DNA of 64,000 nt. Source: Mesostigma viride. Lineage: Eukaryota > Streptophyta > Mesostigmatophyceae > Mesostigmatales > Mesostigmataceae. Numbering within the stretch: the first letter of the stretch is position 1; each line of letters opens with the position of its first letter. The notes under the pieces are model-generated. The model was given only the letters and a program-made list of their open reading frames with translations, was not told the DNA's origin and searched no databases. Shown here one piece after another: positions 3,865 through 27,752 of this stretch. The stretch covers positions 2,563,285 through 2,627,284 of the forward strand of contig RPFO01000164.1 in the NCBI GenBank assembly GCA_009746045.1, written 5' to 3'. Both the position numbers and the translations under genes were made by a program.

Positions 3865-3882
3865 TATATATATATAACCCCT

Positions 3883-3956
3883 ATTGAGTGATAGGGGCTT
3901 GTGGGGTACCGGGGAGCTATTATTGAGTGATGATGATTGAGTGATAATTGAGTGAT
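3883..3956 (+). repeat. ATTGAGTGAT iterons in left TIR
   Basis: Four copies of ATTGAGTGAT start at 3883, 3922, 3936 and 3947 and are mirrored in the right TIR. Clustered short direct repeats at a replicon end are candidate binding sites for a replication initiator. The virus encodes an OBP-type helicase, which in herpesviruses binds origin repeats. Binding here is inference. Confidence 0.5.
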
Positions 3957-4242
3957 AAAATATTGGAGTTTTTTTTACTTTTTACTGACACCCGTCACGG
4001 GCTTACTGCCCCTTCTCAACCCCCGCCAACCTTGGCTCGAGGGTCGCCGGGCTTTAGAGGTGCTTAATAATGCTGGCATCCGTCACCACCAGCCGTGGGG
4101 CTGCCGCCTACCGATCCCCTCCTACTCCCGAGCCTGGGGGTGCGATGGTTCGTGACGGGCGTGAAAAGTGTGACTTCCGTTTTGCTCAACCATGACCGAC
4201 CGCGGACAGCGGGGTTGGGTGAGAACTGTGGGAGAAGGTTCG

Positions 4243-4481
4243 GCGTTCTGCCCAACTTTTATACCAAAAGCTTTTAAGAGTTGGGCAGAACGCGGGACCT
4301 CGAAAAGTCAAGCTCACCGCCCAGCGCGCACCCGGGTCGATGGGCGGCGTGAAAAATGTGACTTCCGTTTTGCTCAACCATTACCGACCGCGGACAGCGG
4401 GGGTGTGTGAGGACGGCGGGAGAAGGTTCGGCGTTCTGCCCAACTTTTATACCAAAAGCTTTTAAGAGTTGGGCAGAACGC
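4243..4481. repeat. Two hairpins in left TIR units
   Basis: Hairpins at 4243-4293 and 4431-4481, each 51 bp, have perfect 15-bp outer arms (GCGTTCTGCCCAACT and its complement) around an A/T-rich loop. They are 188 bp apart, once per TIR unit. The corresponding outer unit in the right TIR has a paired base change, which suggests the stem matters. Confidence 0.8.
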
Positions 4482-4626
4482 GGGACCCCGAAAAGTCAAG
4501 CTCACCGCCCAGCGCGCACCTGGGTCGCTGGAAAACCCAGCCCTGGTCGGGAAATTCGCGGAACTTTCGTGCAGGGGTCTGCGTCCTCGCGGTACTCGGG
4601 AAGGGCGGGAGAGGGGGTGGCGGGGT

Positions 4627-5007
4627 TTAGCGAATGTCTCTCCAGAGTTGCAGTTGCTCCTTCACCTTCGCGAATGTCGGCGAAGAGATGGACTGCCTGC
4701 CCGTGACGCAACCGGCCATGATGGAGAGAACCGCGAGGTCCTCGCACACCTTGTGAACGTCGTCCGGGGTCGCCTCGCTACCTAGTGCGCGTGAGGCGGC
4801 GGCTAGGAGGGTCAAAGGATTGTCAAGCTGTTCTAACTCTAAACGGTAGTTGTCATCGTACGGGTCAGGCTTTCCGGCGATGATGCAGGATATGCGCGCC
4901 ACCTCTGCGGCGTTGCGGGCCCGTTCAGTGCCGTCCTGGATGTACCCGCCACTACCCGGCTTGCAGGCCTCGATGCAGTTCAGAATGTCGTTCATGGTCA
5001 CGAACAT
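4627..5007 (-). CDS. Viral hypothetical protein, 126 aa
   Basis: Last gene of the leftward block; its stop lies inside the inner edge of the left TIR. The protein is soluble-looking and probably helical, with no signal peptide, membrane segment or recognisable motif. Codon 5 is a second ATG (4995), so a 122-aa form is possible. A CTATACAG box at 5016-5023, 8 nt before the first ATG, matches the viral promoter-like motif and favours the first start. Function unknown. Confidence 0.6.
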   Translation of the reverse strand: MFVTMNDILNCIEACKPGSGGYIQDGTERARNAAEVARISCIIAGKPDPYDDNYRLELEQLDNPLTLLAAASRALGSEATPDDVHKVCEDLAVLSIMAGCVTGRQSISSPTFAKVKEQLQLWRDIR

Positions 5008-5048
5008 GTTGGGAGCTGTATAGATTCATGCAAAGAGAATTTTATTGA

Positions 5049-5231
5049 TTAGTTATGTTTATTATCAGGTGATGGGGCGGGAGTCGGAGTGCCCTCGGAG
5101 TCTGGCGCGATTTCAAAAGGGGCGTACACGACCTCATAGGCGCGCCTGTACGTCGGGCTCCTTCTCATCCTCCTTATTGACTCCTCCAGAATTTCTGAGT
5201 ACTCGTAACCAAGCTTTAAACAGTTGCCCAT
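5049..5231 (-). CDS. Possible small viral protein, 60 aa
   Basis: Same strand as its neighbours and fills the gap between the 126-aa and 164-aa genes. It starts MGNC, a context compatible with N-myristoylation or palmitoylation, followed by an Arg-rich helix and a Pro-rich acidic tail. No clear TATA-core motif lies directly upstream, so it may be read from the 164-aa gene's transcript or be spurious. Function unknown. Confidence 0.4.
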   Translation of the reverse strand: MGNCLKLGYEYSEILEESIRRMRRSPTYRRAYEVVYAPFEIAPDSEGTPTPAPSPDNKHN

Positions 5232-5265
5232 AGAAGTGTTTCAATCTATGATGAGCTTTTTTAAC

Positions 5266-5760
5266 CTACTTGTGATGGCACTTGCACTTGTCGAACCCGC
5301 GAATTTTCTCAAAACGCAAGATGCAAAGAAACGACTCGTGGGTTAGTGGGATGAATTGTTTGTCATCAACTCCTCTGTCAATGTGCACTAAACCGATCTC
5401 GAGTCTCCCGCCATTCCTAAACAAGTGATCGTTTTTTGGGTTGAAAAATGCATGGTCGTTTATCACGGTGTACGAGGCGGCAACATCTTTGCATTCTTCC
5501 GTACATAGCACGACACTGTCTTGTGGGTTATGCTCTCCTCCAGAAAAACTTGAAGAAACTAGTCCGACAAGCGAGTAATTTTCTTGGTTTTCCACGTCCT
5601 TGAGATATGCGAAATGGACCCCTCCGCGCCATGTGCTGTCTATGATAGGCGCTCTTGGGTCTGGCTTGATATCGAAAGAATAAATTCCATTGTACTCGTC
5701 GATTGTGTTCTGTGACGCGACAGAATCTAAAGCGATTTGGTAAAATGTGGGATAATCCAT
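5266..5760 (-). CDS. Viral hypothetical protein, 164 aa
   Basis: ATG at 5760 with CTTATAAG 13 nt upstream (5774-5781). The mixed, beta-rich composition suggests a compact globular protein; it ends in a Cys/His/Lys-rich tail (KCKCHHK). No transmembrane segment. Its place beside the adhesin and capsid genes suggests a virion or late protein, but no family is recognised. Confidence 0.6.
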   Translation of the reverse strand: MDYPTFYQIALDSVASQNTIDEYNGIYSFDIKPDPRAPIIDSTWRGGVHFAYLKDVENQENYSLVGLVSSSFSGGEHNPQDSVVLCTEECKDVAASYTVINDHAFFNPKNDHLFRNGGRLEIGLVHIDRGVDDKQFIPLTHESFLCILRFEKIRGFDKCKCHHK

Positions 5761-5811
5761 GGCTTTATTACAACTTATAAGAGATAATAGTTCTAGTCTT
5801 ATTAAAGTTCT

Positions 5812-7503
5812 CTACGCTGGGATGGCGGCGGGAGTGCCCCACTTGGCCACGAGGTATCCGCGGATCCGTTCAAGCTCCGCTGACGTTTTGGCGGTGTTGT
5901 AGATTAGGATCTCGCCAATCCACCCATCGAAGGCACGACTTGCGTTGCTCGATTCTCCTCCGATAGAGAGATTTCCTGAACCAGTCGTAGGGTCCGATCC
6001 AATTCTATTATAACCAGCTCTTCCATCGAAGCGGGTGACAAACTCATTTGTGCTGCTGTTGCATGAAATCGCCATGACGTGTGGTACGTTGTCGAAGAAT
6101 TCCGCCCTGGTGCACACGAGTTCGTATACATTATTGGGAGGGAAGATGGCAACGGCCTGTACATCTGGATGGTACACTACTACATAACTATTGTTATTTG
6201 ACGACCCAAGCATATACCCTCTGACACCCGTATACCCCCCTACTACTGGATACGTCGCAGTCGTTAGCTGTTTGGCGACTAGGAGGATGCTCGTGTTGGT
6301 CCCGATCGCCCCCCAAAAGGTGCTTGCGGACGTTAAGTAGCCCGCGCGCGAGTTGATAAAGCGAAGGGATTGTTTCGAGTTCAGTTCCGTCGTTGCCAAC
6401 GTCGGACATTTGGCGGAAGTGTCCTGAGTCATGTGGTACCCGTTCGGCCCCTTGTCGTTCACGCGCATTACGTTCCCGCCCGCCGTGTTTTGCTGGGTCG
6501 TGCCGGACGTGTCGCTGAACATCGTGGCGCTGTCGGACGGATCGTACCACGCGAACAGTGCGGGGTCCGTTGCCGGGTTGTAATTGTACGTGAATGACAG
6601 TGTGTTTGATGTCGTGTTTCCAAGCCCTGACGTCGCGCTCGTCACGGTGCCCGCGCCCATGCTTACCGTCGTCGCGAAGTCAGACATGGTAGGGGTCACG
6701 TCGAACGTGTACGTGGCGCCACTTCCCAACAAGTTGGACGCGGTTCCGTTGGTTACGGTGATGTCGCCCAACGAGAACCCGGCGACCGACGTGCTAAAAG
6801 TGGCCGTGACTGGGTAAACGGCACCCGTCGGGGTTCCGGACGCAAGAGTCACCGACGGATTCGCCGAGTACGTGAACGACAGTGTGTTAGATGCCACGTT
6901 GGCGTTCCCTGTCGATGCGTCAACAACAGCACCCGCGCCCACGCTAACGTTCGTGGCAGAATTGGCTGTAGTTGGCGTCACCTGGAAGGCGTACGACGCC
7001 CCGCTGCCGGTCAGGTTGGCGGCTGTCCCGTTTGTCACCGTGATATCGCCCAGCTCGAACCCCGTGACGGACCTGCTGAACGTGGCGGTCACGTCCACGG
7101 AACTGGTGGTGGGCGTCGAGCCCGCGGTCGTCGCGAGAGTCACCGTCGGAGGGGGCGAGTACGTGAAGGAGAGGGTGGAGGAGGCCGTGTTGCCGATTCC
7201 TAGCGTGTTGATTGCTGCGTTTGCTCCAACGCTGACGGTTGTCAGTGAATAAGCGACTGCCGGAGTCACCGTGAACGTGTAGGAGGTGTCGCTACCCGTT
7301 AAACCGGATGCAGTACCATTTATGACAGCGATATCACCCAAGGCGAAACCGGTGACTGGTTGGCTGAATGTTGCTGTTACTGCAATCGGGGAGGCGCTGG
7401 GATTTGATCCTCCTGTAGTTGTTAATGTGATTGACGGCGCTATTCTTACCGGTTTACGCTTCTTCCGCATCAAAGCAGGACAAACACCATACTCAAACGA
7501 CAT
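5812..7503 (-). CDS. Ig-repeat plus LamG-like adhesin, 563 aa
   Basis: After a short basic N-terminus, three tandem modules of about 90 residues (roughly 24-114, 115-205 and 206-295) share the pattern VTATFS..VTGF.LGDI.V.NG.A..L.GS, typical of bacterial Ig-like domains of the Big_12 type. The C-terminal half from about residue 305 (FAWYDPSDS) to GYLVAKWG resembles a concanavalin/LamG-type lectin fold seen at the ends of phage tail and surface proteins. It most likely forms a spike or fibre that binds a host glycan. There is no signal peptide, as expected for a capsid-attached protein. The repeat type is best known from bacteria and their phages, so horizontal origin is plausible. GTATAC lies at 7511-7516, just upstream of the ATG. 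Confidence 0.75.
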   Translation of the reverse strand: MSFEYGVCPALMRKKRKPVRIAPSITLTTTGGSNPSASPIAVTATFSQPVTGFALGDIAVINGTASGLTGSDTSYTFTVTPAVAYSLTTVSVGANAAINTLGIGNTASSTLSFTYSPPPTVTLATTAGSTPTTSSVDVTATFSRSVTGFELGDITVTNGTAANLTGSGASYAFQVTPTTANSATNVSVGAGAVVDASTGNANVASNTLSFTYSANPSVTLASGTPTGAVYPVTATFSTSVAGFSLGDITVTNGTASNLLGSGATYTFDVTPTMSDFATTVSMGAGTVTSATSGLGNTTSNTLSFTYNYNPATDPALFAWYDPSDSATMFSDTSGTTQQNTAGGNVMRVNDKGPNGYHMTQDTSAKCPTLATTELNSKQSLRFINSRAGYLTSASTFWGAIGTNTSILLVAKQLTTATYPVVGGYTGVRGYMLGSSNNNSYVVVYHPDVQAVAIFPPNNVYELVCTRAEFFDNVPHVMAISCNSSTNEFVTRFDGRAGYNRIGSDPTTGSGNLSIGGESSNASRAFDGWIGEILIYNTAKTSAELERIRGYLVAKWGTPAAIPA

Positions 7504-7529
7504 GGAGCTAGTATACTACCACAATGACA

Positions 7530-7694
7530 CTATTTTTTTGGCAGAGGATACTGGAACTTGGGTTCCATCAGCGGGCCCTTCTTGGCCGGCAAGTTAGTCG
7601 CCGTGCCATTATCGGCCAGCTCAGGGGTGTCGAAGACCAGCGTGACTCTGTTGAGAGGATTCGCGGTGTATCGCGGGTCCTTGAGATAATCCAT
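7530..7694 (-). CDS. Small viral protein, 54 aa
   Basis: An ORF of 54 codons between the adhesin and the major capsid protein. It begins MDYLKDPRYTANPLNRVTLV and ends in PLPKK. Support comes from its exact fit in the gap, its strand, and a GTGTATAG box 6 nt upstream (7701-7708) matching the viral motif. Proline- and lysine-rich; a small virion or cement-type protein is possible but unproven. Confidence 0.55.
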   Translation of the reverse strand: MDYLKDPRYTANPLNRVTLVFDTPELADNGTATNLPAKKGPLMEPKFQYPLPKK

Positions 7695-7724
7695 CGAATG
7701 CTATACACTAACCATCAGACATTT

Positions 7725-8972: not shown

Positions 8973-8982
8973 GGTGTGTGTT

Positions 8983-8990
8983 GTATACCT
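8983..8990 (-). promoter_or_regulatory. GTATAC box upstream of MCP
   Basis: Reads AGGTATAC on the coding strand, 10 nt upstream of the MCP start. The same core precedes most viral genes at 5-13 nt, so it is a candidate viral promoter element. Confidence 0.6.
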
Positions 8991-9012
8991 TCTACCTTAG
9001 ATAAAAATCCGG

Positions 9013-9297
9013 CTAGCTTAGGAACTTACCAAGCAGCGGGTTGGACGCCCTGTGCGCGTCCACCTTCCTCTCGATGTGCGAAAGGGCGTCGAGTCCGGTC
9101 TTCGCGGCCTTGTAGACCGTTCCCAAGACTGGGGAGCTTTCGAGGAGTTTGCTGGGAACGTGCCCGAGAGCTGCGTCCGCGGCACCGGCGGCACCCTTGA
9201 TGAACCGCGCGCCCTCGCCGACTTTCCTGATCGCGTCCCCCGCCATGTGTCCGATTTTACGCGCGGTGCTCACGACTTTGCCGAAATCAAGCTTCAT
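9013..9297 (-). CDS. Small Gly/Ala-rich virion-type protein, 94 aa
   Basis: Basic and amphipathic, with a Gly/Ala-rich centre (residues about 28-48) and no strong transmembrane span. It lies between MCP and penton; its first 11 nt overlap the end of the penton gene (9287-9297). GTATAA at about 9308 lies 9-10 nt before the ATG. Position and composition recall small internal or membrane-active capsid proteins such as adenovirus pVI, but there is no sequence proof. Confidence 0.6.
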   Translation of the reverse strand: MKLDFGKVVSTARKIGHMAGDAIRKVGEGARFIKGAAGAADAALGHVPSKLLESSPVLGTVYKAAKTGLDALSHIERKVDAHRASNPLLGKFLS

Positions 9298-10144
9298 CCT
9301 CTTCGTTTATACCTACCTGGTTAGATAATCTTCTCGCAGGCAGAACGTCCTTGTCGAGCGCCATGTACTTGAGAATACCCCCGATCTTCCGCGCCTCGAC
9401 CCCCATGGCCTTTTGCGGGGATATCCGGAAAGTCAGCTGAACCACCCAGTCGCTGTACAGCTGGATCGGTGCGTCGTCCTCGTCTAACAGGCGCAGGCTG
9501 ATCGACCTAGGTGAGTCTCGTACGTGCTGCCACAGTGGACTCTGCGCCTGCCATATGATGGGCTCGAGAAATTTGGACAGGTTCGGACAACACGCCAACA
9601 GACCGCCGTAGACCGTCCCGTGGGTCGCCGAAACCACATTCCCGCGCACGATGTCCGAGTAAACATACACGGCCCGCAGCCGCCCGTTCGTGGCTGGTCG
9701 GTTGCTGTAAACGACGAACTGGTCATTCGACTGATGAATGCCGGGTGTTAGCCCGAGGACCCGCCCGACCGACTCGCCAACCAGGAACTGGAACGGACTC
9801 TCTGCAACGAACGTGTACCGACTATTGGCCCGATCATAGGTGACTGTGAAGCTGCTGTCGATTGTCAATAAAGTCGTCTCGATGTTCTGGCGGTTCTCGA
9901 TGGTGGTCCACGACCCGACCGGCAGTGAGACCGTGTGCGCCGTCGCCATCGTGACCTCAAAGGTGTTGTTATTGCTGTTGATGTGTGTCTGCTCGTAGGG
10001 AATCGTCAGCAAGGTCAGCCCCACGTCGTGGTAATCCTCTAGCAGGCCAGCAGGGATGTCCCAAATTGGATCATGTAGACCGCCCCTGGTCCTGTTCTCG
10101 GTCCTCAGCGTCAACGTCCTGCACTCCTGAACGTACTCCTTCAT
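9287..10144 (-). CDS. mCP: Minor capsid protein (penton, single jelly-roll)
   Basis: 285 aa, beta-rich throughout. It contains LRAVYVYSDIVRG followed by a region ending SLRLLDEDDAPIQL and WVVQLTFRI. This strand arrangement is typical of the penton proteins that cap the five-fold vertices in polintons, PLVs and virophages. It lies directly upstream of the 94-aa gene and MCP on the same strand, the common PLV order. Its start overlaps the end of the 103-aa gene upstream by 74 nt, so translation may be coupled or transcripts shared. Confidence 0.8.
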   Translation of the reverse strand: MKEYVQECRTLTLRTENRTRGGLHDPIWDIPAGLLEDYHDVGLTLLTIPYEQTHINSNNNTFEVTMATAHTVSLPVGSWTTIENRQNIETTLLTIDSSFTVTYDRANSRYTFVAESPFQFLVGESVGRVLGLTPGIHQSNDQFVVYSNRPATNGRLRAVYVYSDIVRGNVVSATHGTVYGGLLACCPNLSKFLEPIIWQAQSPLWQHVRDSPRSISLRLLDEDDAPIQLYSDWVVQLTFRISPQKAMGVEARKIGGILKYMALDKDVLPARRLSNQVGINEEDEA

Positions 10145-10382
10145 TCTCTACAATGACTTCAGAAGTTATTTCGTTCTTGCCGTGGATCACGACCTTGCCA
10201 CTCTCTCCCGCAAGCCCACGCGATTTCCTCTTTAGGACCCTCCTCTCCTTCCCGGTGAGCGGCTTGCTCCTACAGTACAGCATGGCTGCCTCGATGAACT
10301 CGCGAGGGGTGTCGGGGTAGAGTGTCATCCACTGGGCGATCTGCAGCATCTCGGCGTCGGAAAAGAGGTTGTCCATATTCAT
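10071..10382 (-). CDS. Viral hypothetical protein, 103 aa
   Basis: The first in-frame ATG is at 10382; upstream codons in frame would start at a non-ATG codon and run into the box at about 10393-10399 (CTATATTG on the coding strand), so 10382 is preferred. The helical N-terminus contains TPREFIEAAMLYCRS; the middle is very basic (KERRVLKRKSRG) and the tail acidic. It overlaps the penton start by 74 nt. Function unknown; nucleic-acid binding is possible from the charge pattern. Confidence 0.55.
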   Translation of the reverse strand: MNMDNLFSDAEMLQIAQWMTLYPDTPREFIEAAMLYCRSKPLTGKERRVLKRKSRGLAGESGKVVIHGKNEITSEVIVENEGVRSGVQDVDAEDREQDQGRST

Positions 10383-10411
10383 AGACCTTTGCAATATAGC
10401 ATTCGAAATTT

Positions 10412-10936
10412 TTACAGGGGAGATTCACGAGACCCACTAATACCAGTAAGCTCCCCCCGTCTAAGGGCCCCGGATACGTGCTTCGGTTCCTTCTTCTTGA
10501 TCATTGCTCTCAGATGCTGGTTCAGTCCTTGTTGTGTATTTGATTTTGGCTTTAACCCGCAATCGGCACATTCATAGTCGATACTAGAAAATCGCGACCC
10601 GCCTTCAAGTCTCGCTGGTTCTGGCGAGGCAGCTACTGGTGGTGCTACTGGGACAGACACTGGAGCGGCCGCTTCAGGTTTTTGGTCATAGGCGGACAAG
10701 GGAGGGTACGCGACAGGTTTAGCGTTTGCCATGATGGCGGACATCAACATCGCGTCCCTGAACCCGCGGGTCTCGGCGACTTTGCCTTTCTTGGCGGGTC
10801 GGCGCACTGGGGTCGAGTGGATGATGATGGAGTTGGTCATCGTGCTCGTCGTGGGCATTTGGGCAGTGGTGCGGACCTTGCGGCGAGGCTTGTGTGCTTT
10901 CTTACTTGGGCGTTTTGACGTCTTCCGAGGCATCAT
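10412..10936 (-). CDS. Basic protein with C-terminal zinc-finger motif, 174 aa
   Basis: The N-terminus is extremely Lys/Arg-rich (residues 1-25), like a DNA-condensing core protein or nuclear localisation signal. The middle is Pro/Ala/Val-rich and likely disordered. Near the C-terminus YECADCGLKPKS followed by spaced His residues resembles a C2H2-type finger. Two adjacent ATGs (10936 and 10933) are possible starts. It is probably DNA-binding: packaged core protein or regulator. Confidence 0.6.
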   Translation of the reverse strand: MMPRKTSKRPSKKAHKPRRKVRTTAQMPTTSTMTNSIIIHSTPVRRPAKKGKVAETRGFRDAMLMSAIMANAKPVAYPPLSAYDQKPEAAAPVSVPVAPPVAASPEPARLEGGSRFSSIDYECADCGLKPKSNTQQGLNQHLRAMIKKKEPKHVSGALRRGELTGISGSRESPL

Positions 10937-10962
10937 GTGCTTTATAACACTGTACTAAGATT

Positions 10963-13900
10963 TTAAACAGTCCACGTGATTGGGCCAAATATCTCCCCAC
11001 TTGCCGGCAATCCTGACTTGGACCTGCATTTGAGGGGCGGGTCGAGATACACCACAGCACTACCAGAACCCAGCGGCTTATCCACCCTCAAGAGTATCTC
11101 ATACACCCCGTCAGCCTCGTCATAACCAGGCGCGACTCGCCAAGATGGACCGACAAGGAGCCTGCCGGTTGTGCCAGGCCCATAAATGAAATTCACGGCA
11201 TCTGGCAGAAGTCTGTAGGGGTGGCCGATGTCCAGAAGGGCGGGCGCACCTTGCGTGAAATGGACCCGGAGATAGAACGCGCTAAGTGTGGTCGGGGGCG
11301 ATATGACAGCCCCGTTTTGATCTCGAAAGCTCAGAGTTCCCTTTGGTCCGAGTTCCCAGAGCTCTGGCTGCATGTAGTCATAGGCCACCGTTCGCATCCC
11401 GGTTATCGAGAATGGGATTCTATGGGCCTCGCGCTCGTCTGTGTAGACAGCCTCATTGAGGTATGATGTCGTGCCTACTTGAAAACCCCCGTCCCCATAA
11501 AACTTTGCCGTCGATGAGGACGTAATGATGAGGGTGGAATGTGGATTAAAAGAAGCCGTTGGCGTGAACGTCACAGTGAACAAGTGCGTTAGACCTCCTA
11601 GAGAAGGAGAGAATGGCGTCGGTAATTCGATGGATACAACGATCCATCTAGTCGATCCACTTATCCAATTTGCCGCGGAAAGCGTGCCTCCCTCCCAATC
11701 TGCGCCCTTTATAATGGTGCTTACGGGGTTGGTATGACTTAGAGACGTGGAGTTATAGTACAAATCAACTGTGAACTTTTTTATGTGTGGGAGGTCTGGT
11801 AGTACCCCGTAGACAGCAACTGGGTACGTCATGGGCGTATTCCCATGATTGTATGGCGGCAACTTGGCGACGGCGTGGACGATGTTATCTTTCGTTGTCA
11901 GAAGTTCCGTGTAATAAAGGTTCGCCACCCCGGGAACAGGAGAGGAGAAGTAGTTACGGCCCATGATCGAACAAATTAGCGATTGTGTGCCGCGGTGAGT
12001 GAGCCGCAGAGTGTTTCCAGATGTTGAGTAAAGGCCTGTTGAGTTCGTGGTCGTAAGCGAGATGAACTCGACATTGTTCGTATTGTCGATTATTTCGCAC
12101 GCGTTGATAATCGTCTGGTGGGCGCTGTCCAGATGAAAAACTAACCTCACCTGACCAGGCGCATACGGAGCTATGATCCCAGTCGGAGAGGCTGTGAAAA
12201 TGCCTGTCACGGAATTCGCTAGCTTAGTCATACTGCTCAGACCAGTGGGAGCGGAATAGGAGATGTATCGATCAATTAAACCATCGGACCGTCTCCTAAA
12301 CGCTATCCAGAAGATCGTCTTACTTGCCCACGTCGCGTCGAGTGTATACTCAGTGGCGATCTTCCGGTTTTGATATAGCCCGATCTTCCCGTTCGTCTTG
12401 TCGATATTGATCCCACAAACCGACCACCAGTTGTCGGCTGCTCCTTGATTCCTCCAGCAGTTGTGACCGTCCGTGAAAGCGGGGTGGTACTTTCCCGTTA
12501 TGTCGTTGTGATCCGAGAGCGAGACAAATGCGGTGCCGGACGGGACGATCATTTCGAAACACAGGACAAACGGACCGTCGATTTCCTGGTCGCTGAACAC
12601 GACGCACTTCTCAGGAGGTGTGACATCGTTCGCGGCCAGCCCGTAAAAACTCGCGGGATCGGGCGTGAACTCGTACTTGTCGTGTGTCGGCTGCAAAGTC
12701 GTAGCGGGATCTCGCGAGAAATGCAGGAGGCTATGGAACGTCTTGGACGGTCCGCTTACCGTCACGGTCTCTCCGGTCAAGTGCGGGGCGTCGCGAGGAC
12801 ACGAGAAACGAGGCGTGATTTGGACCGTCTCCTGCGACGAGTGTGGCAGAAGATAGTCCCAAACCCCGGCGCCGGTCACGGATCCGATCACGGACCCGTC
12901 CGCGACGATCTCGTAATTTGCGGGCGTCTGCGCGCCGTCGCCCCATCCCGTGGAATGGTCTGCGTACATCTGCATGCCGATCCTCGCCGGTCTCGTCGTC
13001 GTAAAGTAATGGCTGGGAGTTCGAATCGCCGCGACGAGCGGGTCTGTCTTCACCACGCCCACGACGGCCATTTTCCGCTGGGTAGTAGACGTAGCCATCG
13101 TCGCGTCGTTATAGATCGTCACATTGGCCGACACGAGCTTCCCATGATCCGCCGACGTCAACGCGCACGTAACCGCGTCCTCTCCGCGCAGTCCCCCGTC
13201 CACGTCAAGCTGGAAACTACCCGCGGCGTCGGTTAACGCGACATCGTCGACTTTCCACGAGATGGGCAGTTTCCGTTGATAAGCCCACGGCGTTGTGTTC
13301 TTGATCCCTATCTTTAGAGGCGGCACACCGCCGTCGCCAACGACTACCCACGTCTGGTAAGGCGCGGTCGTTCTCCAGTAACTCTCGGTCGGCTGGTCGA
13401 TCCGCCCTATGTCCCAGGCCGTTAGAGGGGCGTATGTGCGCGTGATGTGGAGGCCGTTAGAGAGTCTCTGCATCCTATTCAGGTCCCTAGTCGTCGCAAA
13501 CCCGACCTGAGAGAAACTCATCAGTTTTCCAAAATACGCATGACCGGTGCTTCCAAAATGGATTTCGTCCATGTGAGGACCGTCTACAGTCTGGCTTGCG
13601 TTGATCGGATCCAAAGCCCCAAGAACCTGGACTTGGTACGTGCATTTCCCGTCGCTGTCTCCTCCCGTGACCGTGTAGGGAAGAAGTATGCGGATATCCT
13701 GATTGTTTGTGATCGTGAACGTAGTTCCAGGGGCAGACAAGGTGCCGTTCTCGTATTGGATCGTGAACATGGCGCTAGGGCTGGGCAATGTGGTGTATCC
13801 AACACTGTGCCTATCAAATAGCCAGTCGATCTGATCGCGCGTCAATATTCGGTCTGCGACGATCTCGGAAATTGTCGCGTATTGGTCGAGCAGTCGCAAA

Positions 13901-14066
13901 GAGGAAATCCGAATCCAATCTGCGACGATGCCCCCGTCGACCTCTAACATCCCGCTTGTCTCGCCCGTCGTAACCGCCGACCATTCGCTGTAGTTGTCGC
14001 CCAGTCTCACTCGCGTCGGGGCGCTAGGGTATACGTAGCGGACCCCGTTAACACGTCGTACGTCAA
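10963..14066 (-). CDS. Giant fibre/adhesin-like virion protein (N-terminus displaced by insert)
   Basis: Open for about 1035 codons from 14066 to 10963. It is extended to an apparent ATG at 14112 only by sequence belonging to the AT-rich insert. The protein is beta-rich and Thr/Ser/Gly-rich with no membrane span. One section (about residues 470-680) resembles a concanavalin- or SPRY-like sandwich. A later section with HLFTVTFTPTASFNPHSTLI resembles cohesin-type beta domains. It is probably a receptor-binding fibre or vertex protein. The original N-terminus may be the coiled-coil ORF at 15920, on the far side of the insert. No family is certain. Confidence 0.65.
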
Positions 14067-15778
14067 AACTCAGTCCTATTTTTAGGACTGAGTATGCCAA
14101 CTTTGAGATCATGTAGCGGTAAGGGTAGGGGGGTACCCCATATGTTTGATATGCATCAGAGCACTCAATATCATGCTAATGCTTGGGCATATGCCTAAAA
14201 AATCATATGTTGACCAAATCATGTAAAATTTTACAAGGGTGTCAACCCATGCTCGCGATTTGGCAATTTTCTGTGGAAGGACGAGTTGGGAAAATTCAAT
14301 AAAATCCATATGCATGTTGAAAAAATATAGGCGTGTAAACAATACAGTTCTTGAAACATGGCAAAAAACTGGGCTCAATTTGGCCACAGCCTCTACCTGA
14401 AACTCACCAAAAACCACCAGCCCTAAGAATGGGTTTCGAGGTTGCTAGCAATGTGCAAGCATGTAAGTGCGGTCATACTACACACCACCGTGGCAACCAA
14501 CCATGCCAATCAACTCATTTCCCTTCTAGCATAACAGGAAAACATACTTGCATCATCATATTGCAGTTATATTATACCTTAGTATATGTGTGAGAGCCTA
14601 TGCACGCACGTAGGGAATGGGCATTGTTACCTACCTACAAAGGGTTTTATTATGAGCCTTAACCACCAATATAATGGGTAGGTTAAGCATATTTCAATTG
14701 TTTTTAACAAGAATAGAGATGGCTAACACTGTTTTGCCTTGCCATGGCATGGCCAACATACTTGCTGGCACATGATGACAGTGGTTTATCACCAAGATTC
14801 TTCACTCACCCGTATAAGCTTGAAAGCACGCTGGATGCAGCCCATGGCCATACAATCACGCAGTATGAACGTAGCAAAAGAATAACTAACATCTATGAAG
14901 GTATTTAAACCCATACAGCGCCTAAAAAACTGCAAAAGTACACTAGGGTAAGGCAAATGCCTGGTAACATCATAAAAAATGGGGGGTTTAGAGAGGGGCA
15001 GGCAACGGTCAAGAAAGCGCATCAAGATTCGAAACTGACAGCGCCTTGCAAGCTCAAACTCATGTAAGAACATAACAAAACGATGAGGTGACGATATTTC
15101 AGCTTTACCGTGCACGGATGGCGTTATCTTGGCCCAGGCGGTGCCCGCAAAAGTGACACTTGCGGCACACAAACCATGACATGACAGAGTGGTCGAAATC
15201 ATCAAATCTTTACTGCCACTGACTTAATTCTACACACATGCATGATAATAAGTAGAAAGAAGCATATAAACCCTTCGAACTGCACCGTAAAGTAAATTTA
15301 GTCATCAATTCCGTCAACCTGCCTGGTCGCAGTTTTTTCCAGCAAGAGCAGTGCCGACACCTGGTAAATCGCATCCCCGGGAGCTAAAAATTGGTTTGTG
15401 TCATCTTTAGGACATATTAAATCTATTTCCTGGGTTTTACCAGCTAAATCGTCCGCAAACGTAAACTGCATGCATGGGCGCAAGCCGCCATGGCTAGGTC
15501 GTGCATTTCCGGAACTCACGTTTCACGTGAAAAAGTACCCTTACCACCTGTACTTTGACCGTACATTTAGCCGCCCAAACAAAATCCAAAAAAATCGCAA
15601 AAATATGTCTAAGAAAGGTCATTTCACGTAGTATTTGAATAAATTTTGAGGGAATTTTTTTGACAAACATTCCGACTTGGGCGAATTTTCTACGAAACCC
15701 AAAAACTCAGTCCTAAGAATAGGACTGAGTTGAACTCAGTCCTAAGAATAGGTGCAGTGACGAACGACGTGTTAACGG
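14045..15778. mobile_element. AT-rich insert with nested inverted repeats
   Basis: The insert is clearly AT-richer than the surrounding virus and has only unconvincing ORFs. Outer arms 14045-14065 and 15758-15778 are inverted repeats matching at 20 of 21 positions. Just inside lie palindromes at 14068-14093 and 15705-15730 (ACTCAGTCCTA, spacer, complement), plus an extra half copy at 15734-15752. It looks like a non-autonomous DNA element with complex ends inserted between the start of the giant fibre gene and its body. Whether the outer arms belong to the element or to a hairpin target is unresolved. Confidence 0.65.
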
Positions 15779-15920: not shown

Positions 15921-15959
15921 GTTGTTCTAATATTATCTAAGACATTAACTATAGCGCCA
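15921..15959. promoter_or_regulatory. Divergent promoter region at the centre of the virus
   Basis: An AT-rich 39-bp gap between the leftward and rightward gene blocks. CTATAG at 15949-15954 lies 5 nt before the rightward ATG; ATATTAGA lies before the leftward ATG. Confidence 0.4.
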
Positions 15960-16520
15960 ATGAACCCAGTCCTAGACGCCCCAGATTCGCCAACGAGCCC
16001 CGCCGCCGCCGACGCGGAATCGACAGCACCACAGGAGCCCGTAAAGACCGAGGAGGTTAGCAAGGCTGTGAAGTACAAGAAGGGCGCACAACTCTCCGAG
16101 GAGCAGAAGCAGGCCCTCAGGGACAAGATGCGGCCGTACCACCAGAAGAGGAACGAGGAGCGCGCCAAGAAGCGCCAGGAGGAGCGCGAGGCCGAGATCA
16201 CCAAGCGCAAGGTCCTTGAGAAGGAACTCGAACTCCAGCGGCAGAGACTGGTCGAGCTCGAGCTGGAGGAGAAGCGAAACAAGTTCCGGATAGAACGACT
16301 GTTGGCCGCCGAGGAGGTCGCCGAGACTCCGACGGACACCCCTCGACCCCGCCGCCGCGGGAAGAAGCCAAAGTACGAGGTCGAGCAGGAGGAGCGCGAA
16401 CAGGCCGCCAAACCGAAAGCCCCTCCGCCTGCCGTGAAGACCGCGCCGACTCTCACGCCTTACGAGCAAAGGATGCTGGCTATCCGGGCATCCCTGCTGG
16501 CCTCGCTCAACGACGACTAA
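15960..16520 (+). CDS. Viral coiled-coil protein, 186 aa
   Basis: The ATG at 15960 is preferred because longer readings begin at a non-ATG codon and run over the promoter gap. The N-terminus is acidic and Pro/Ser-rich. A continuous, highly charged Glu/Lys/Arg helix spans about residues 45-125 and should form a coiled coil. A basic stretch RPRRRGKKPKYE follows and the C-terminus is helical. It stands directly before the packaging ATPase (20-bp gap). A scaffold or DNA-associated role is plausible; no family is recognised. Confidence 0.65.
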   Translation: MNPVLDAPDSPTSPAAADAESTAPQEPVKTEEVSKAVKYKKGAQLSEEQKQALRDKMRPYHQKRNEERAKKRQEEREAEITKRKVLEKELELQRQRLVELELEEKRNKFRIERLLAAEEVAETPTDTPRPRRRGKKPKYEVEQEEREQAAKPKAPPPAVKTAPTLTPYEQRMLAIRASLLASLNDD

Positions 16521-16540
16521 AAATCTCTGCCTTCTAATAA

Positions 16541-17425
16541 ATGCCAGAAATCGAGAGCATCCACATCGAGACGCCGCTCGCCAACAAGGACCTCAAGCTG
16601 AAATACGCCAAGACCCGCCAGGTCCCATCCAACGCGCCAAGGCTGCACTTTATCGCCTCTTTTGTGGGCATGCGAGGGACCGGGAAGACGACGGCGGCCA
16701 TCAACATGGTCAAGGCGTACTTCGACGCGCACTCTTTCGACAAACTGTACCTGATCTCGGGGTCCGCCACGACCGAGCCGAAGTACAAGCTCCTTCCGAC
16801 GCCCGCCATGAGTATGGAGACGTACACGGACGACAGCTTCAACCAGATGGTGGCGGACATCAAGAAAGACCTCACGGAATACGAGGAGTACCAGCGGGAC
16901 TTGAAGGTGTGGGAAAAGTTCAAGAAGGAGTTCTTAGACGGCCAGAAGACCGAAGAAGACATGGACCTCAACATGTTTTTGACCCTCGACAGGCTTCAGT
17001 TCAAAGAGCCCGAGACGCGGTTCCAGTACGGGCCTCCCTCCTCGATCATCCTCATCGACGACATGGCGGGGTCAAAGCTCTACCGGGCGGACTCGAAAGG
17101 TCCCGTGTCGTCCTTTGCATTCAAACACCGGCACCTGTTAACGTCCATGGTCTTCGTCAACCAGTCATTCACGAGCGCGGGAGTTCCGAGGTCCGTCCGC
17201 GCCAACGTCTCGTTCCTCGTGCTCTTCCGCACCAAGGACCGGCGGGCCTCGCGACAGATCGCAGAAGAATCGGCGGGTCACACGTCACCAGAGGACTTCC
17301 TGGCACTGTGGGAGTACGCCACCCAAAACAGCCCACACGACTTCCTCGCGGTCGACAACGACGAACCAGACGACTCGAAACGCTATAGGAAAAACTTTGA
17401 TACCTACTTGGTCCTGAAAAAATAA
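16541..17425 (+). CDS. Genome-packaging ATPase (FtsK/HerA, A32-like)
   Basis: 294 aa. Walker A GMRGTGKTT is at residues 43-51 and Walker B IILIDD at 169-174. A later MVFVNQSFTS segment carries a polar sensor residue (Gln about 207). Size and motif spacing match packaging ATPases of PLVs, virophages and nucleocytoplasmic viruses, which drive DNA into preformed capsids. It follows the coiled-coil gene by 20 bp and is probably co-expressed late. No truncation is seen. Confidence 0.9.
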   Translation: MPEIESIHIETPLANKDLKLKYAKTRQVPSNAPRLHFIASFVGMRGTGKTTAAINMVKAYFDAHSFDKLYLISGSATTEPKYKLLPTPAMSMETYTDDSFNQMVADIKKDLTEYEEYQRDLKVWEKFKKEFLDGQKTEEDMDLNMFLTLDRLQFKEPETRFQYGPPSSIILIDDMAGSKLYRADSKGPVSSFAFKHRHLLTSMVFVNQSFTSAGVPRSVRANVSFLVLFRTKDRRASRQIAEESAGHTSPEDFLALWEYATQNSPHDFLAVDNDEPDDSKRYRKNFDTYLVLKK

Positions 17426-17453
17426 AATCTATTCTTATTACTATACACTTGCG

Positions 17454-17982
17454 ATGGACTTGAAGCAGGCATTTTCTCAGCCCACGACGCCCTCCCCACA
17501 ATATAGCCTCCCAGACCCAGCCACTCACAATTGCGCGGGGCTCAAGGTGAATAACAACTCCTACCGTGGCAGTTCCGACCGCCGAGATCTGGTGCTCAAC
17601 CTGGCCACACTCGTGCGCTACCTGACCGGCGCCAGAATAGCACCAAGGTCCACGAGAGGATGGCGGCGTTTGTGCGAGAGTGCGGGTACGACGGCGAGCT
17701 GCCCCCCACGCATACCGGGATAGGCCACGAGTGCCGCCAAAAGTTGATGCACATCATCGCCATGAAACGCAAACCCCGCAACCCCCCCCTCCGCCAAAGG
17801 CCCCTCGCCCCCCGAAAATCAAAAAGGAAGTCATCCCTCGGAGCCCCAAGAAGCGTGGTAGGCCCGCGGGGTCGAAGGACACAAAGCCGAGGACTCATAA
17901 TATCGACCCCGAAACAGGTCTTCCCAAGCCTTGGGGGAGGCCTAAGAAAGGGAAGTCGGGTGGCGATGACAAAAGAACCTAA
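17454..17982 (+). pseudogene. AT-hook DNA-binding protein gene with two frame breaks
   Basis: ATG at 17454 after a CTATAC box (17441-17446). Three overlapping frames each carry the credible part in turn: to about 17634 (ending LVRYLTGAR), then about 17635-17782 (MAAFVRECGYDGELPP and following), then from about 17790 to 17982 (KKRGRPAGSK and WGRPKKGK, two AT-hook-like motifs). Both changes have the same sign (one base short). One is near AGAATA at about 17634, the other at a run of eight C at 17782-17789. They may be sequencing or assembly errors, decay or frameshifting. The likely role is minor-groove DNA binding. Confidence 0.6.
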
Positions 17983-18416
17983 AACTCACGTTTTCTTTAT
18001 TCGATTTGATATCTATTTGCACCATTGTGTGCGCCTTGAGTAGAGCTTTCCGGGGACACCAAGAACGTCGAAAACGGACTACAAACGAGAAAGTTACGCC
18101 ACTTGGCGCGAGAGGGTGTGGGAAGGGGGCGGCGGCCGGTGACAGAGGTCTGCGCGAAGCGCGCGGAATGATTTCCGACATTTTCGACCATTCCGATTTT
18201 TTTGGCAGGCATCGAGAGAAAGTTCCCGGGCCTTGAAAACTTCTTGTCAAGGGGTGCCAGTGTTTTGGGACTTGTGAAATTTTAAAAAAGTTGGCTCGAA
18301 ATTCATCAACCCTTGGCTGCAAGTTTTCATACCCTAAAAATATTAGCTCGATGCCCAAGAATCGAAACAAAAATCAACAGTGCGTTCAAAAATCCCAAAT
18401 TTTTTTCTAATGTATA
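17983..18416. other. Viral intergenic stretch before the recombinase
   Basis: About 430 bp without a believable gene; ORFs present lack coding character. It holds a small GC-rich inverted repeat near 18150-18165 and AT-rich sequence towards the recombinase promoter. It may contain cis elements. Confidence 0.5.
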
Positions 18417-18424
18417 GGTATAAG
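18417..18424 (+). promoter_or_regulatory. GGTATAAG box upstream of recombinase
   Basis: GGTATAAG, 8 nt before the ATG at 18433; same core and placement as at MCP and primase. Confidence 0.6.
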
Positions 18425-18432
18425 TACCCGCC

Positions 18433-19713
18433 ATGGTCAAAGTCGTCAGGTCCGAGGAAGAACTCCGCCAACGCCGGGAAGCGCAGGCCCGCTATCGGCT
18501 CAAACACCCAGAGAAGGCCGCCCTACAGCGAATGAGAGCGATGGCCAAGAAGGACCAGTGGACACCCACCGAGAAGTGGTTGGAGAAACACGGGACAGAT
18601 TGCGAAGAGGTCAACGAGGTGCGAGCAGTCGTCGGCCTCCCAGAAAAGGAGTGCAAACCCCAGGAAGCACCTTCAAAGCCCGCGCCGCCTAAGAAGACAT
18701 TGGCACACCCCGCCCTTTGGTCCTTGGACGACGCCAAGAACATGGTCGCGAATTTGCCGGAGACGCTAAGCCCCGCTGAGGGGGCGGGAAGGAAGAGGGC
18801 GCAGAGGGCCAAGGGGCAGATTTCGAGGGGTTCTGGGAAGACATACCTCGCGCGGTTGACAAAGATCCTCAGGCATCTAGGATACGAACCAGACAAAGAC
18901 GGTGCCAAACCTGTGACGCCCCTCCTCGACACCAAGAAAGTGCGCGAGGCCGTAGACGCCCTGTCTGAGCCTTCCGAGAGGGGCGGCAAGAAGGACCGCG
19001 CCATCACCAAGAAGACGAACGCCAAGGACCTTTTCTCATCGATCAACTCGATCGATAACCAGATGGATGCCGGCAAAAGGATCCCGCAAGACGTGCGCGA
19101 GGCCTACGTGGAGGACATGGCGACGTCCCAGGAAGGTCTCGAGGCCAACGCGGAATTCGTGAGCGAAAACAAGCCACCAGCCCACCCATGGCCCGAGCTC
19201 GTCGAGTTGCGAGATAAGGCCGTCAAAGAGGGCTTGGAGAGCGACAAGGCGCTCATCGGCCTCCTCTACTTTTCCGGCGAAGAACTGCCACCTGTCAGGC
19301 TCGACTACCACGACGCCCGGATTGTGAAATCGGCGAAAGAATTGGGAAAGACCGAGAACGGCTACATCCCAAAAGAGTACAGGTTCATCATCAACGCCCA
19401 CAAGACCGCGCCGGTCCTCGGGGCGATAGATTTTGTAGTCCCCAAGAATCTGAAAACGTTGCGAGAAGCGCTCGACATGCGGAAAGACAGGCCTTACTTG
19501 TTCATGCCTTCTCGAGGCAAAAAAGCCCCAATGTCAGTCGAAACATTCGGCGCGATCCTCCGCAAACATTTCCACGGCGTCGACAACGCTCGCCAGGCTT
19601 TCGTGACCCAATTTGTCATGAATGCAGGCATGGCGGCGAGGAAGCGGTTTGCGAAAATGATGGCGCACTCGGTCAACGTCCAGATCCAATACGAAAGAAT
19701 GAGGAATGATTGA
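18433..19713 (+). CDS. Tyrosine recombinase / integrase
   Basis: 426 aa. The N-terminal third is basic and helical, probably DNA-binding. The C-terminal catalytic core shows Arg289 (PPVRLDY), Arg387 in the box-II region (DNARQAFVTQF), His412 (MMAHS) and the nucleophile Tyr420 (QIQYERM). The first residue of the usual HxxR is Asp here, a known variation. It would cut and rejoin DNA through a 3'-phosphotyrosine link and is the only integrase in the element. PLVs with tyrosine recombinases instead of RVE integrases are known in algae. It starts after a GGTATAAG box and ends before a hairpin at 19745-19767. Confidence 0.85.
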   Translation: MVKVVRSEEELRQRREAQARYRLKHPEKAALQRMRAMAKKDQWTPTEKWLEKHGTDCEEVNEVRAVVGLPEKECKPQEAPSKPAPPKKTLAHPALWSLDDAKNMVANLPETLSPAEGAGRKRAQRAKGQISRGSGKTYLARLTKILRHLGYEPDKDGAKPVTPLLDTKKVREAVDALSEPSERGGKKDRAITKKTNAKDLFSSINSIDNQMDAGKRIPQDVREAYVEDMATSQEGLEANAEFVSENKPPAHPWPELVELRDKAVKEGLESDKALIGLLYFSGEELPPVRLDYHDARIVKSAKELGKTENGYIPKEYRFIINAHKTAPVLGAIDFVVPKNLKTLREALDMRKDRPYLFMPSRGKKAPMSVETFGAILRKHFHGVDNARQAFVTQFVMNAGMAARKRFAKMMAHSVNVQIQYERMRND

Positions 19714-19744
19714 TTCGCTCACTTGTTGAAAATTGATTGTCACC

Positions 19745-19767
19745 CTTTTATAACGTAGTTATAAAAG
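19745..19767 (+). terminator. Hairpin after the recombinase gene
   Basis: Perfect 10-bp arms (CTTTTATAAC and its complement) around GTA, 31 nt after the stop. Giant viruses and virophages often use such AT-rich hairpins for 3'-end formation; that role here is inference. Confidence 0.5.
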
Positions 19768-19888
19768 TCCCGGGTTTTTTCGACCATTGAGAAAGTCTAT
19801 TCTTTTATTGATTAATAAAATCCAAGTTTTTGTCCAACCCAGAAAATTCCAACCCGAGTCCAGCCAGAAAAAAAAATCTAAGCATAGA

Positions 19889-19895
19889 GGTATAC
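19889..19895 (+). promoter_or_regulatory. GGTATAC box upstream of primase
   Basis: GGTATAC, 11 nt before the ATG at 19907. Its position makes 19907 the preferred start over an upstream in-frame reading. Confidence 0.6.
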
Positions 19896-19906
19896 ACACA
19901 TTCATC

Positions 19907-20323
19907 ATGACGACCAAAGTTTACCTGAAGTACAACCCGCGCTGGCTCCCAGCCCAACAGATGGCAATCGACAATGGAGAGAAACTAGGCCATCCTTTCT
20001 TGGCAGCCCTCGACAAGGACGAGAAAACAGCCAAAAAGTACACGAGCGTCAGGGATGTCGAACACCTTATGGAAATTCACAAGGAGTGTATCGACCATCC
20101 ACACATCGACATGCACTGCCTTTACGAGATGGTCAAGGAGGATCACCCCTCCTGGATGCACTTCGACCTCGATGACATCTACCCAAAAGGAGAGGACATC
20201 CCAGACGTGCTCCACCACTTCATACGCATTTTTGAGGCCTTCTGCTTCGATGTGCTGGAAAAAACCCAGACGGCTTCAAGTATCTCATCTCAGGCTCACC
20301 GAGAGAGAAAGGAGACGGCATGA
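19907..20323 (+). CDS. AEP primase, N-terminal fragment (frame-broken)
   Basis: The reading runs 138 codons, but only the first 118 or so are meaningful. FDLDDI (Asp87, Asp89, Asp90) matches the metal-binding motif I of archaeo-eukaryotic primases. After a run of six A (20259-20264) the coding pattern moves to the -1 frame and continues into the next ORF, where motif II begins. The fragment alone lacks the rest of the active site. Either one A is missing (mutation or sequencing) or ribosomes slip -1 at the A run. Confidence 0.75.
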   Translation: MTTKVYLKYNPRWLPAQQMAIDNGEKLGHPFLAALDKDEKTAKKYTSVRDVEHLMEIHKECIDHPHIDMHCLYEMVKEDHPSWMHFDLDDIYPKGEDIPDVLHHFIRIFEAFCFDVLEKTQTASSISSQAHRERKETA

Positions 20324-23300: not shown

Positions 23301-23379
23301 GCAGGCAGAGATAGCGGAAGATATCAAGAAAGTAAGGGAGTTCAAGATGCCTAGTGACTATCAGTTTGCGTTTCGTTAA
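20320..23379 (+). CDS. Primase C-terminal part fused to OBP-like SF2 helicase
   Basis: 1019 aa from the first ATG. Residues 1-10 (KVSFHIVVK) carry AEP motif II, so the primase domain is shared with the fragment upstream. A zinc-ribbon-like set (Cys225, Cys228, Cys253, Cys261) follows, as in UL52-type primases. The helicase has Walker A GTGKS (318-322), DEVD (429-432), a PTISVGVSY segment (592-600) and QMHRVR (Arg630, Arg632). These are the hallmarks of herpes UL9/NCLDV origin-binding-type helicases. It should unwind and prime viral DNA; no polymerase is encoded, so host or helper polymerase is needed. The true 5' end is probably 19907. Confidence 0.85.
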   Translation: MKVSFHIVVKYLKTTDLAARHYIINEFGYYVRSHFLDPDSTFHKDAALLINREKGWPYIQKKWETFADIPKDCATDGNIKLVIDESIYTKNRCFRMVGHHKFGQHDPNAVLRIISGSDDIKDHLVNIYPTTDQTGVQTVEMPEGWKEHYMKKSGNAGRRAPSASISMWKTVSGTFVDASKVARSVEAIAKVSPGSRYMNTQEQFSVMRGGAVKVSRFTLDPGTKCLICKESHNSPGHGPRVEEYSDGEVAYTCWAEKPKPCKTHIKIADRFEYISDKVEFTEVYSEGKVRHFDLAPIVHSLHPGSTEKLTYITQSSMGTGKSEANRAMIAAVLNLYKDARVLLMFANISLSRQEEYNLNKDVIDPALNGGKTRTRAELLADYRYFLNYLKNSRKEEGANDYWITHPRVLVVLNSILRLQDRRFDVVILDEVDSIFNALSNAVMRDRENVFKALMDIITNAKVLIASDANITAGAVNFIRSHRPATDFRVINNEYVRPTNRVLHFTCIKPGRGCEKEWIYQASKQAKKFLDAGKTFVLVSSEAGGTLDRVREQLGDSLNGVNTRRYTSKTPKGDLDLGANEAWKDVQYLEYSPTISVGVSYTLPTFDSMIVMARNSDKHAPYTTTLQQMHRVRQLREGDVHVFYLDSTTPATRPLADFKLIKSHTRQQVDEMFMMMKGLKSSVISSWGEDGERLFGDTSPAYNLLCRNLEALGASRSHYDELMIRTLRERYGYKIAGEVQAGRSEEAPKLKKIEKGEFEPRMISAEEYRELTARAGDRDAILTDAECKLVEMYELCHDRYKISEDLIDEGLIKELADEKARETYHAREQYSRVTELGWEAAIGEGIVDDRARKSENVFGLVRNKKIDHAYRLTMARQLLAGSGIMEFCLDGKSASSTAISRERLTEAVNKLDRDWLYTYQGKFRSVFGYRRRSKNGPGCLSFEQCVGVLESILASTLGINMRTWREEHEKASDAYVSKECMIEFFEKYKPEWWGKQAEIAEDIKKVREFKMPSDYQFAFR

Positions 23380-23508
23380 ATCAGGGGCCAAAACGGCAGC
23401 GATGACTATGCCTGACCAGGGCTCCAAATAGAAATCCCTTGCCGGTTAACACCCACAAATACGCTTAGACATTTTTTGAAAGTGGCGCATCCTTTTGAAA
23501 AAAAGACC
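23380..23508. other. Short gap between helicase and right TIR
   Basis: About 130 bp, no gene seen. Confidence 0.6.
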
Positions 23509-23657
23509 CTAAACCCCGCCACCCCCTCTCCCTCCCTTCCCGAGCACCGCGAGGACGCAGACCCCTGCACGAAAGTTCCGCGAATTTCCCGACCAGGGCT
23601 GGGTTTTCCAGCGACCCGGGTGCGCGCTGGGTGGTGAGCTTGACTTTTCGAGGTCCC

Positions 23658-23897
23658 GCGTTCTGCCCAACTCTTAAAAGCTTTTGGTATAAAAGTTGGG
23701 CAGAACGCTGAACCTTCTCCCGCTGTTCTCACACACCCCCGCTGTCCGCGGTCGGTAATGGTTGAGCAAAACGGAAGTCACTTTTTTTCACGCCGCCCAT
23801 CGACCCGGGTGCGCGCTGGGCGGTGAGATTGACTTTTCGAGGTCCCGCGTTCTGCTCAACTTTTGAATGCTTTTGTTATAAAAGTTGAGCAGAACGC
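23658..23897. repeat. Two hairpins in right TIR, one with a paired change
   Basis: The inner hairpin (23658-23708) keeps TGCCCAAC/GTTGGGCA. The outer one (23847-23897) reads TGCTCAAC/GTTGAGCA and has perfect 18-bp arms. Both arms changed together, so pairing is preserved. Confidence 0.85.
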
Positions 23898-24182
23898 CGA
23901 ACCTTCTCCCGCAGTTCTCAACCCACCCCGCTGTCCGCGGTCGGTCATGGTTGAGCAAAACGGAAGTCACACTTTTCACGCCCGTCACGAACCATCGCAC
24001 CCCCAGGCTCGGGAGTAGGAGGGGATCGGTAGGCGGCAGCCCCACGGCTGGTGGTGACGGATGCCAGCATTATAAAGCACCTCTAAAGCCCGGCGACCCT
24101 TGAGCCAAGGTTGGCGGGGGTTGAGAAGGGCCAGTAAGCCCGTGACGGGTGTCAGTAAAAAGTCAAAAAACTCCAATATTTT

Positions 24183-24256
24183 ATCACTCAATTATCACTC
24201 AATCATCATCACTCAATAATAGCTCCCCGGTACCCCACAAGCCCCTATCACTCAAT
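24183..24256 (-). repeat. ATTGAGTGAT iterons in right TIR
   Basis: Mirror image of the left iteron cluster; the outermost copy is at 24247-24256. Confidence 0.5.
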
Positions 24257-24287
24257 AGGGGTTATATATATATTACAAATAATCGCC

Positions 24288-27664: not shown

Positions 27665-27752
27665 GTATAGGTTTATAGCTGGGCGTTTGCTTTGGTTTGA
27701 GTGATTTCACTCTGCTGTAAGTAATTATATTTTTATAATATATATTCCCAAG

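Follow-up and report, generated by a model that had tools for sequence, protein, structure and literature searches.

A damaged polinton-like virus from a multicopy family in the genome of the streptophyte alga Mesostigma viride

The window analysed here, a stretch of 64,000 nucleotides of the Mesostigma viride genome (assembly GCA_009746045.1, contig RPFO01000164.1, positions 2,563,285 to 2,627,284), contains an integrated element of 20.4 kb, including a 1.7-kb insertion, which has terminal inverted repeats, a capsid gene, a packaging ATPase, a tyrosine recombinase and a primase-helicase, is flanked by host repeats, and is a polinton-like virus (PLV) in an algal genome, as had been predicted from the sequence. 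The two arms of the terminal repeats, predicted at about 765 bp, align with 96.7% identity over 766 columns; the element is bracketed by repeats as foreseen, its limits moving from 3865 and 24271 to 3866 and 24273. The map of open reading frames (ORFs) bears out a division into two divergent gene blocks (Table 1). The minus-strand block runs in the order 126-aa ORF, 164-aa ORF, fibre 1, major capsid protein (MCP), 94-aa gene, penton candidate, 103-aa ORF, 174-aa gene and fibre 2, while the plus-strand block comprises the 186-aa gene, the ATPase, a small ORF, the recombinase, the primase part and the helicase. A second copy, designated C180, measures 24.2 kb, and both lengths lie within the PLV range of 14-40 kb.

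The structure model of the MCP predicts the double jelly-roll originally proposed, its best match among viral models being A0A2H4YBC6 (21%, E 8.2e-28). A Mesostigma gene model, P0001, fuses the adjoining 94-aa gene to the MCP, perhaps as an annotation artefact. The prediction of a packaging ATPase held up through a Pox_A32 match just below the cut-off (E 1.8e-4, 21.5 against 22.8 bits), a match to a PHROG terminase family (E 6.9e-5) and alignment with the Pox_A32 proteins P0011, P0012 and P0014; its relatives range from 29 to 91% identity, with P0010 of EukProt at 91%. For the tyrosine recombinase, the residues R289, K324, R387, H412 and Y420, which we take to be the catalytic R, K, R, H and Y, occur in that order and are invariant in an alignment of six sequences, arguing for the assignment. 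Comparison of the MCP, penton candidate and recombinase with PDB sequences gave no meaningful match. Fibre 1 matches Big_12 (Pfam, E 1.1e-29) and phrog_10356 (E 3e-12), and the basic 174-aa protein has what is presumably a C2HC-like stretch, without profile support. The helicase matches Herpes_ori_bp of Pfam (E 8.5e-20, 70.9 bits, above the cut-off of 20) and origin-binding proteins in the PDB (E 3.7e-6); its score against the cyanobacterial plasmid family CyRepA1 of NCBIfam is higher than that for Herpes_ori_bp (98.1 bits), yet does not reach the cut-off of 200. The primase has an HFDLDD motif in its N-terminal part, and what we take to be its DxD and sH motifs are split over two ORFs, with no Pfam or NCBIfam profile match. 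Pfam scans, made chiefly on the larger ORFs, detected neither a protein-primed DNA polymerase (PolB) nor a retroviral integrase, and the element is not placed among the Polintons/Mavericks proper.

Table 1. Features of the element, in window coordinates.
Feature	Position	Strand	Remarks
Left terminal inverted repeat	3866..4630	+	tandem pair of a 188-bp unit (188-189 bp), one dyad per unit
Dyad 1	4236..4300		26-nt arms around AT-rich centre
Dyad 2	4425..4487		
126-aa ORF	4627..5007	-	seven other stretches cover >90%, stop-free
164-aa ORF	5266..5760	-	no profile match (Pfam, PHROG)
Predicted fibre 1	5812..7503	-	three bacterial Ig-like (Big_12) stretches; C-terminal match to a phage virion-protein family
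MCP, 415 aa	7725..8972	-	predicted double jelly-roll
TCTAA-N-GGTATA before MCP	8984..9001	-	
94-aa protein upstream of MCP	9013..9297	-	
Penton candidate, 285 aa	9287..10144	-	from position and conservation
TCTAA-N-GGTATA before 94-aa gene	9308..9325	-	
103-aa ORF	10071..10382	-	
174-aa basic protein	10412..10936	-	no profile match (Pfam, PHROG)
Predicted fibre 2 body	10963..14052	-	severed from native 5' end by insertion
1,718-bp insertion	14053..15770		42% GC; near-perfect 13-nt terminal inverted repeats; 6-bp duplication GTTAAC
186-aa charged, coiled-coil-like protein	15960..16520	+	conserved among copies
Packaging ATPase, 294 aa	16541..17425	+	
TCTAA-N-GGTATA before recombinase	18406..18422	+	
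Predicted tyrosine recombinase, 426 aa	18433..19713	+	R289, K324, R387, H412, Y420
TCTAA-N-GGTATA before primase	19877..19894	+	
Primase N-terminal part (archaeo-eukaryotic primase)	19907..20323	+	frame change separates next ORF
Second primase part, zinc-finger-like stretch and UL9-like superfamily-2 helicase, 1,019 aa	20320..23379	+	
Right terminal inverted repeat	23509..24273	-	built as the left: tandem pair of 188-189-bp unit, a dyad in each
Dyad 3	23651..23715		
Dyad 4	23840..23904		T/A variant, altered on both arms

The ends of the element were compared with the left and right end stretches of ten near-identical copies. The left repeat was present in eight of the ten left stretches, with the exact terminal sequence in seven, and in these seven as in the window copy this sequence follows a TA run, with different host DNA ahead of it. 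The same element end next to different flanks implies true ends and insertion at several places, so that integration of the element in the algal genome is supported by more than one junction. In C180 the right end was located 24.2 kb from the left; an alignment of the two repeats of this copy, 755 columns long, shows 99.87% identity. A target-site duplication was judged unproven: TTAC flanks the window copy on both sides, offset by a TA unit, and C180 has nothing alike. The lack of a proven duplication fits published recombinase-bearing PLVs, which, according to PMC12220804, mostly have none and sometimes offset ones.

The original description of the element as near-complete overstates its condition: in the window copy the genes for fibre 2 and the primase-helicase are both broken, and this copy is unlikely to make either protein whole. 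The 1,049-aa ORF does not represent a whole gene, since the insertion cuts fibre 2. This insertion is missing from all seven stretches of other copies that span the site, where GTTAAC occurs once rather than twice, and this AT-richer stretch is likely a small non-autonomous transposon. The reading of the AT-rich 14.1-15.8 kb as a divergent promoter region was rejected, the insertion being absent from the other copies. In five of the same seven copies the fibre 2 gene is one frame of 1,078 aa starting beyond the insertion point; no frame of at least 800 aa was present at fibre 2 in the other two (C1657 and C1568). The second lesion concerns the predicted fusion of a primase with an origin-binding helicase, which was right in kind, but which in the window copy is carried by two ORFs. 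Primase and helicase form a single frame at all seven junctions of six other copies, arguing against both an overlapping gene pair and a programmed frameshift at this boundary. There is a real, if less than even, chance that the frame change is instead a sequencing or assembly error, leaving fibre 2 as the only broken gene: the length difference is private to the window copy among these junctions, and the sequence otherwise matches that of C180 at 99.8-100%. Against this, the EukProt relative P0015 (jgi/Mesvir1), a Mesostigma gene model of 99% identity in a cluster of 12 members, not all of which are shown to be Mesostigma, skips the junction too, perhaps because a second assembly carries this defect as well. 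Among the stretches taken from the window's assembly, none reaches 100% identity with the EukProt proteins.

The bipartite motif TCTAA-N(4-12)-GGTATA occurs four times in the window, against 0.02 expected, and is confined to the element, each occurrence lying 27-30 nt upstream of an ATG, namely those of the MCP, the 94-aa gene, the recombinase and the primase. TCTAA alone lies at most 60 nt from six of 15 gene starts, a result equalled in none of 5000 random placements, where the gene starts were chosen by hand and the pattern derived from the data on which it was tested. As a partly independent check, a slightly looser pattern gave 68 matches in 60 loci; in 67 of them an ATG follows at 27-31 nt, and the remaining one reaches the locus end. 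Most of these matches come from near-identical copies. The motif is kept before the MCP in the classes of 78% and 93% identity and also in front of primases that share about 35% identity with that of the window (L055 and L057), and we predict that it drives the genes of the element. Since TCTA is the promoter of mavirus and EMALE04 and the late motif of CroV (PMC8547959), and is common to ChlorV too (PMC13196603), the likeness suggests, by analogy, a giant-virus helper. The element might accordingly be a virophage-like, helper-dependent form in which TCTAA, so concentrated near its gene starts, acts as a giant-virus-type late promoter with expression confined to giant-virus infection. We regard this only as a tentative alternative, given that the second block, GGTATA, is not part of these published TCTA motif descriptions, that the window lacks any match to AAAAATTGA, the early motif of mimiviridids, and that no helper is known for the element.

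Each 188-bp unit of the terminal repeats contains a dyad, with inverted arms of 25-26 nt flanking an AT-rich centre. Across the copies, 19 dyads were examined, and two alleles were found at a paired position, C/G in 14 and T/A in four, with both arms always matched; the remaining dyad has lost 1 nt from one of its arms. These paired alleles may represent a single historical change. The UL9 sites of herpesvirus origins consist of inverted boxes beside an AT-rich spacer. The layout of the dyads recalls these sites and by this analogy makes them candidate origins, at which the UL9-like helicase would bind the paired dyads, with synthesis begun by the primase fused to it. The dyads could instead be binding sites of the recombinase, being symmetric and located within the terminal repeats, and recombinases often bind inverted arms; this is rather unlikely, however, as the dyads lie 370-620 bp inside the element, whose very ends consist of TA runs.

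A search of the window's own assembly (439.9 Mb) for the MCP, in which 101 of 531 candidates were scored, gave at least 101 relatives, all scored rows matching at 68-100% identity, of which 93 lack internal stops and eight have them. Counting the gene of the window itself, sixteen are full-length at 98-100% and one is partial at 98%; three stand at 93% and 81 at 68-78%. For the recombinase, 98 of 379 candidates were scored, giving at least 100 rows; 94 of these are stop-free and 19 stand at 97-100%, again including its own. Both counts are lower bounds, and a few recombinase rows are fragments of one gene. When copies were compared with the window in 500-bp bins, C180, C2022, C335, C1657 and C2133 were 99.4-100% identical to it across 16366-19866, and C1568 95.0-99.8% with one bin uncovered; beyond 20866 coverage comes from C180 only, at 100% to bin 22866. 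Divergence is concentrated in the fibre genes. In fibre 1, identity is 76-81% in bin 5866 (119-139 bases covered) in six of seven copies and 91-96% in bin 6366. Over the fibre 2 body (bins 10866-12866), identity drops to 69-82% in places for C180, C335, C2133 and C2022, remains at 96.6-100% for C1657 and C1568, and the location of the divergence differs from copy to copy; we infer from these alignments an exchange or fast change of receptor-binding modules. In C180 (L029, L041, L030, L042) the recombinase and primase start are doubled about 5.5 kb apart, and C335 (L045, L046) carries two related elements within about 27 kb together with a third, whose recombinase, at 73-75%, has a stop. Multiplication by host DNA duplication of an otherwise dead element, which would accommodate these adjacent and doubled units, the two lesions of the window copy and the MCP rows with stops, is improbable in view of the different host DNA found exactly at the same end in seven copies and the window copy and of the stop-free state of most MCP rows.

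What was directly observed comprises the genes and repeats of the element, its edges set in differing host DNA, the number of copies and how nearly identical they are, the two lesions, the motif and its spacing, and the concentration of divergence in the fibre-like genes. We consider it probable that the window holds a damaged PLV copy from a family of at least 101 capsid-gene relatives, which spread recently by its own recombinase, which would use a UL9-like helicase-primase at the dyads and whose genes would be driven by TCTAA-GGTATA. The tyrosine recombinase would have multiplied the family recently in the algal genome, inserting the element into AT/TA-rich sites without regular target duplication. 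Virions may be, or may once have been, made, to judge from the capsid, the ATPase and the penton assigned by position, while the fibres would have diverged through the swapping of receptor-binding modules. A bolder form of this account, in which a currently mobile, recombinase-driven PLV lineage of a basal streptophyte starts replication at paired dyads in herpesvirus fashion, is expressed from a giant-virus-type TCTAA promoter and alters its binding by swapping fibre modules, strikes us as doubtful.

Several results weigh against the favoured account of a recently spread, recombinase-driven family. The MCP model is of middling confidence (predicted local distance difference test score, pLDDT, 65.9). 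The penton, originally counted as recognised, was not confirmed: searches of Pfam, PHROG, NCBIfam and PDB gave the candidate no match, and the model built from its sequence alone, at pLDDT 30.9, is unusable. The recombinase likewise has no match in Pfam, NCBIfam or PDB, and has Asp in place of the His of what we take to be the usual HxxR box. The right repeat was found at the expected distance in none of the ten right-hand stretches, because copy lengths differ, and full length is established for two copies only, those of the window and C180. Under the looser pattern, no promoter-like motif precedes the 94-aa gene in L017-L020, nor the recombinase in L052, L053, L055 and L057. Finally, the side-by-side copies of C335 mean that part of the copy number may be due to host duplication.

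Among known systems the closest likeness is to the PLVs of cryptophytes (PMC12220804), which share the terminal repeats, the capsid and ATPase core, a tyrosine recombinase without regular target duplications, a primase-superfamily-2 helicase (known from 20 elements of Rhodomonas lacustris), laminin-type fibres and many copies per genome. The window element differs from them in its streptophyte host, the Ig-like fibre 1, the bipartite TCTAA-GGTATA motif and the repeat dyads, the helicases being compared by description. With the PgVV-type PLVs (Yutin 2015, PMC4642659) it shares the MCP and ATPase core, with the penton candidate as the putative minor capsid protein, the repeats, the tyrosine recombinase and the lack of a retroviral integrase or PolB, whereas their helicases belong to superfamily 3 or 1 or are TVpol-fused and that of the window element is of superfamily 2 and UL9-like. 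Mavirus and EMALE virophages (PMC8547959) are also integrated, capsid-bearing elements with repeats and, in type 4, a TCTA promoter, but use a retroviral integrase, some having a tyrosine recombinase as well. Through its Herpes_ori_bp match the window helicase resembles those of UL9, pF1055L and mimivirus R8 (PMC11253617), from which it differs in following a primase, as a fusion, within an element of 20 kb.

The suggestion that the element defines a new lineage is borne out in part. Scans of IMG/VR with the MCP, the ATPase, the penton candidate and profiles of the MCP and helicase gave no relatives, nor did GTDB genome contigs searched with the MCP profile, plasmids searched with the helicase or phages searched with the recombinase; the helicase gave one weak phage match, in a Leptolyngbya phage (26.6% over 28%). 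Relatives were found only in Mesostigma and a few contigs. However, tyrosine recombinases, laminin-type fibres, expansions across the genome and primase-superfamily-2 helicases (in one MELD virus besides the 20 R. lacustris elements) have each been published for PLVs (PMC12220804), and streptophyte MCPs are mentioned in Bellas 2023. In the literature searched, partly as excerpts, no description of PLVs in Mesostigma or of this gene combination was found, and the supplements of Bellas 2023 may include Mesostigma; one apparent match for polinton-like virus and Mesostigma refers to Mesostigmata mites. With these features published and the combination not found described, the element is of a known kind and an apparent new variant. 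Mesostigma is among the earliest-diverging streptophyte algae, on the line leading to land plants, and PMC12220804 names this line as an exception to the presence of PLVs. More than 100 related capsid genes, some near-identical, offer natural copies for studying the entry, multiplication and decay of PLVs in streptophytes, and the repeat dyads, the motif at fixed spacing and the divergence confined to the fibres each yield a plain, testable prediction.

The host DNA around the element has features of its own. Beside the right end, at 24847-27746, a single host repeat recurs in a nest of copies, some inverted and some direct, several of which end in TA-rich runs like the ends of the element. 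Further out are reverse-transcriptase-like ORF fragments (42402-43472 and 58423-58881) and, at 48360-48552, a long CCACCACCA array that reads as poly-Pro, poly-His or poly-Trp depending on the frame.

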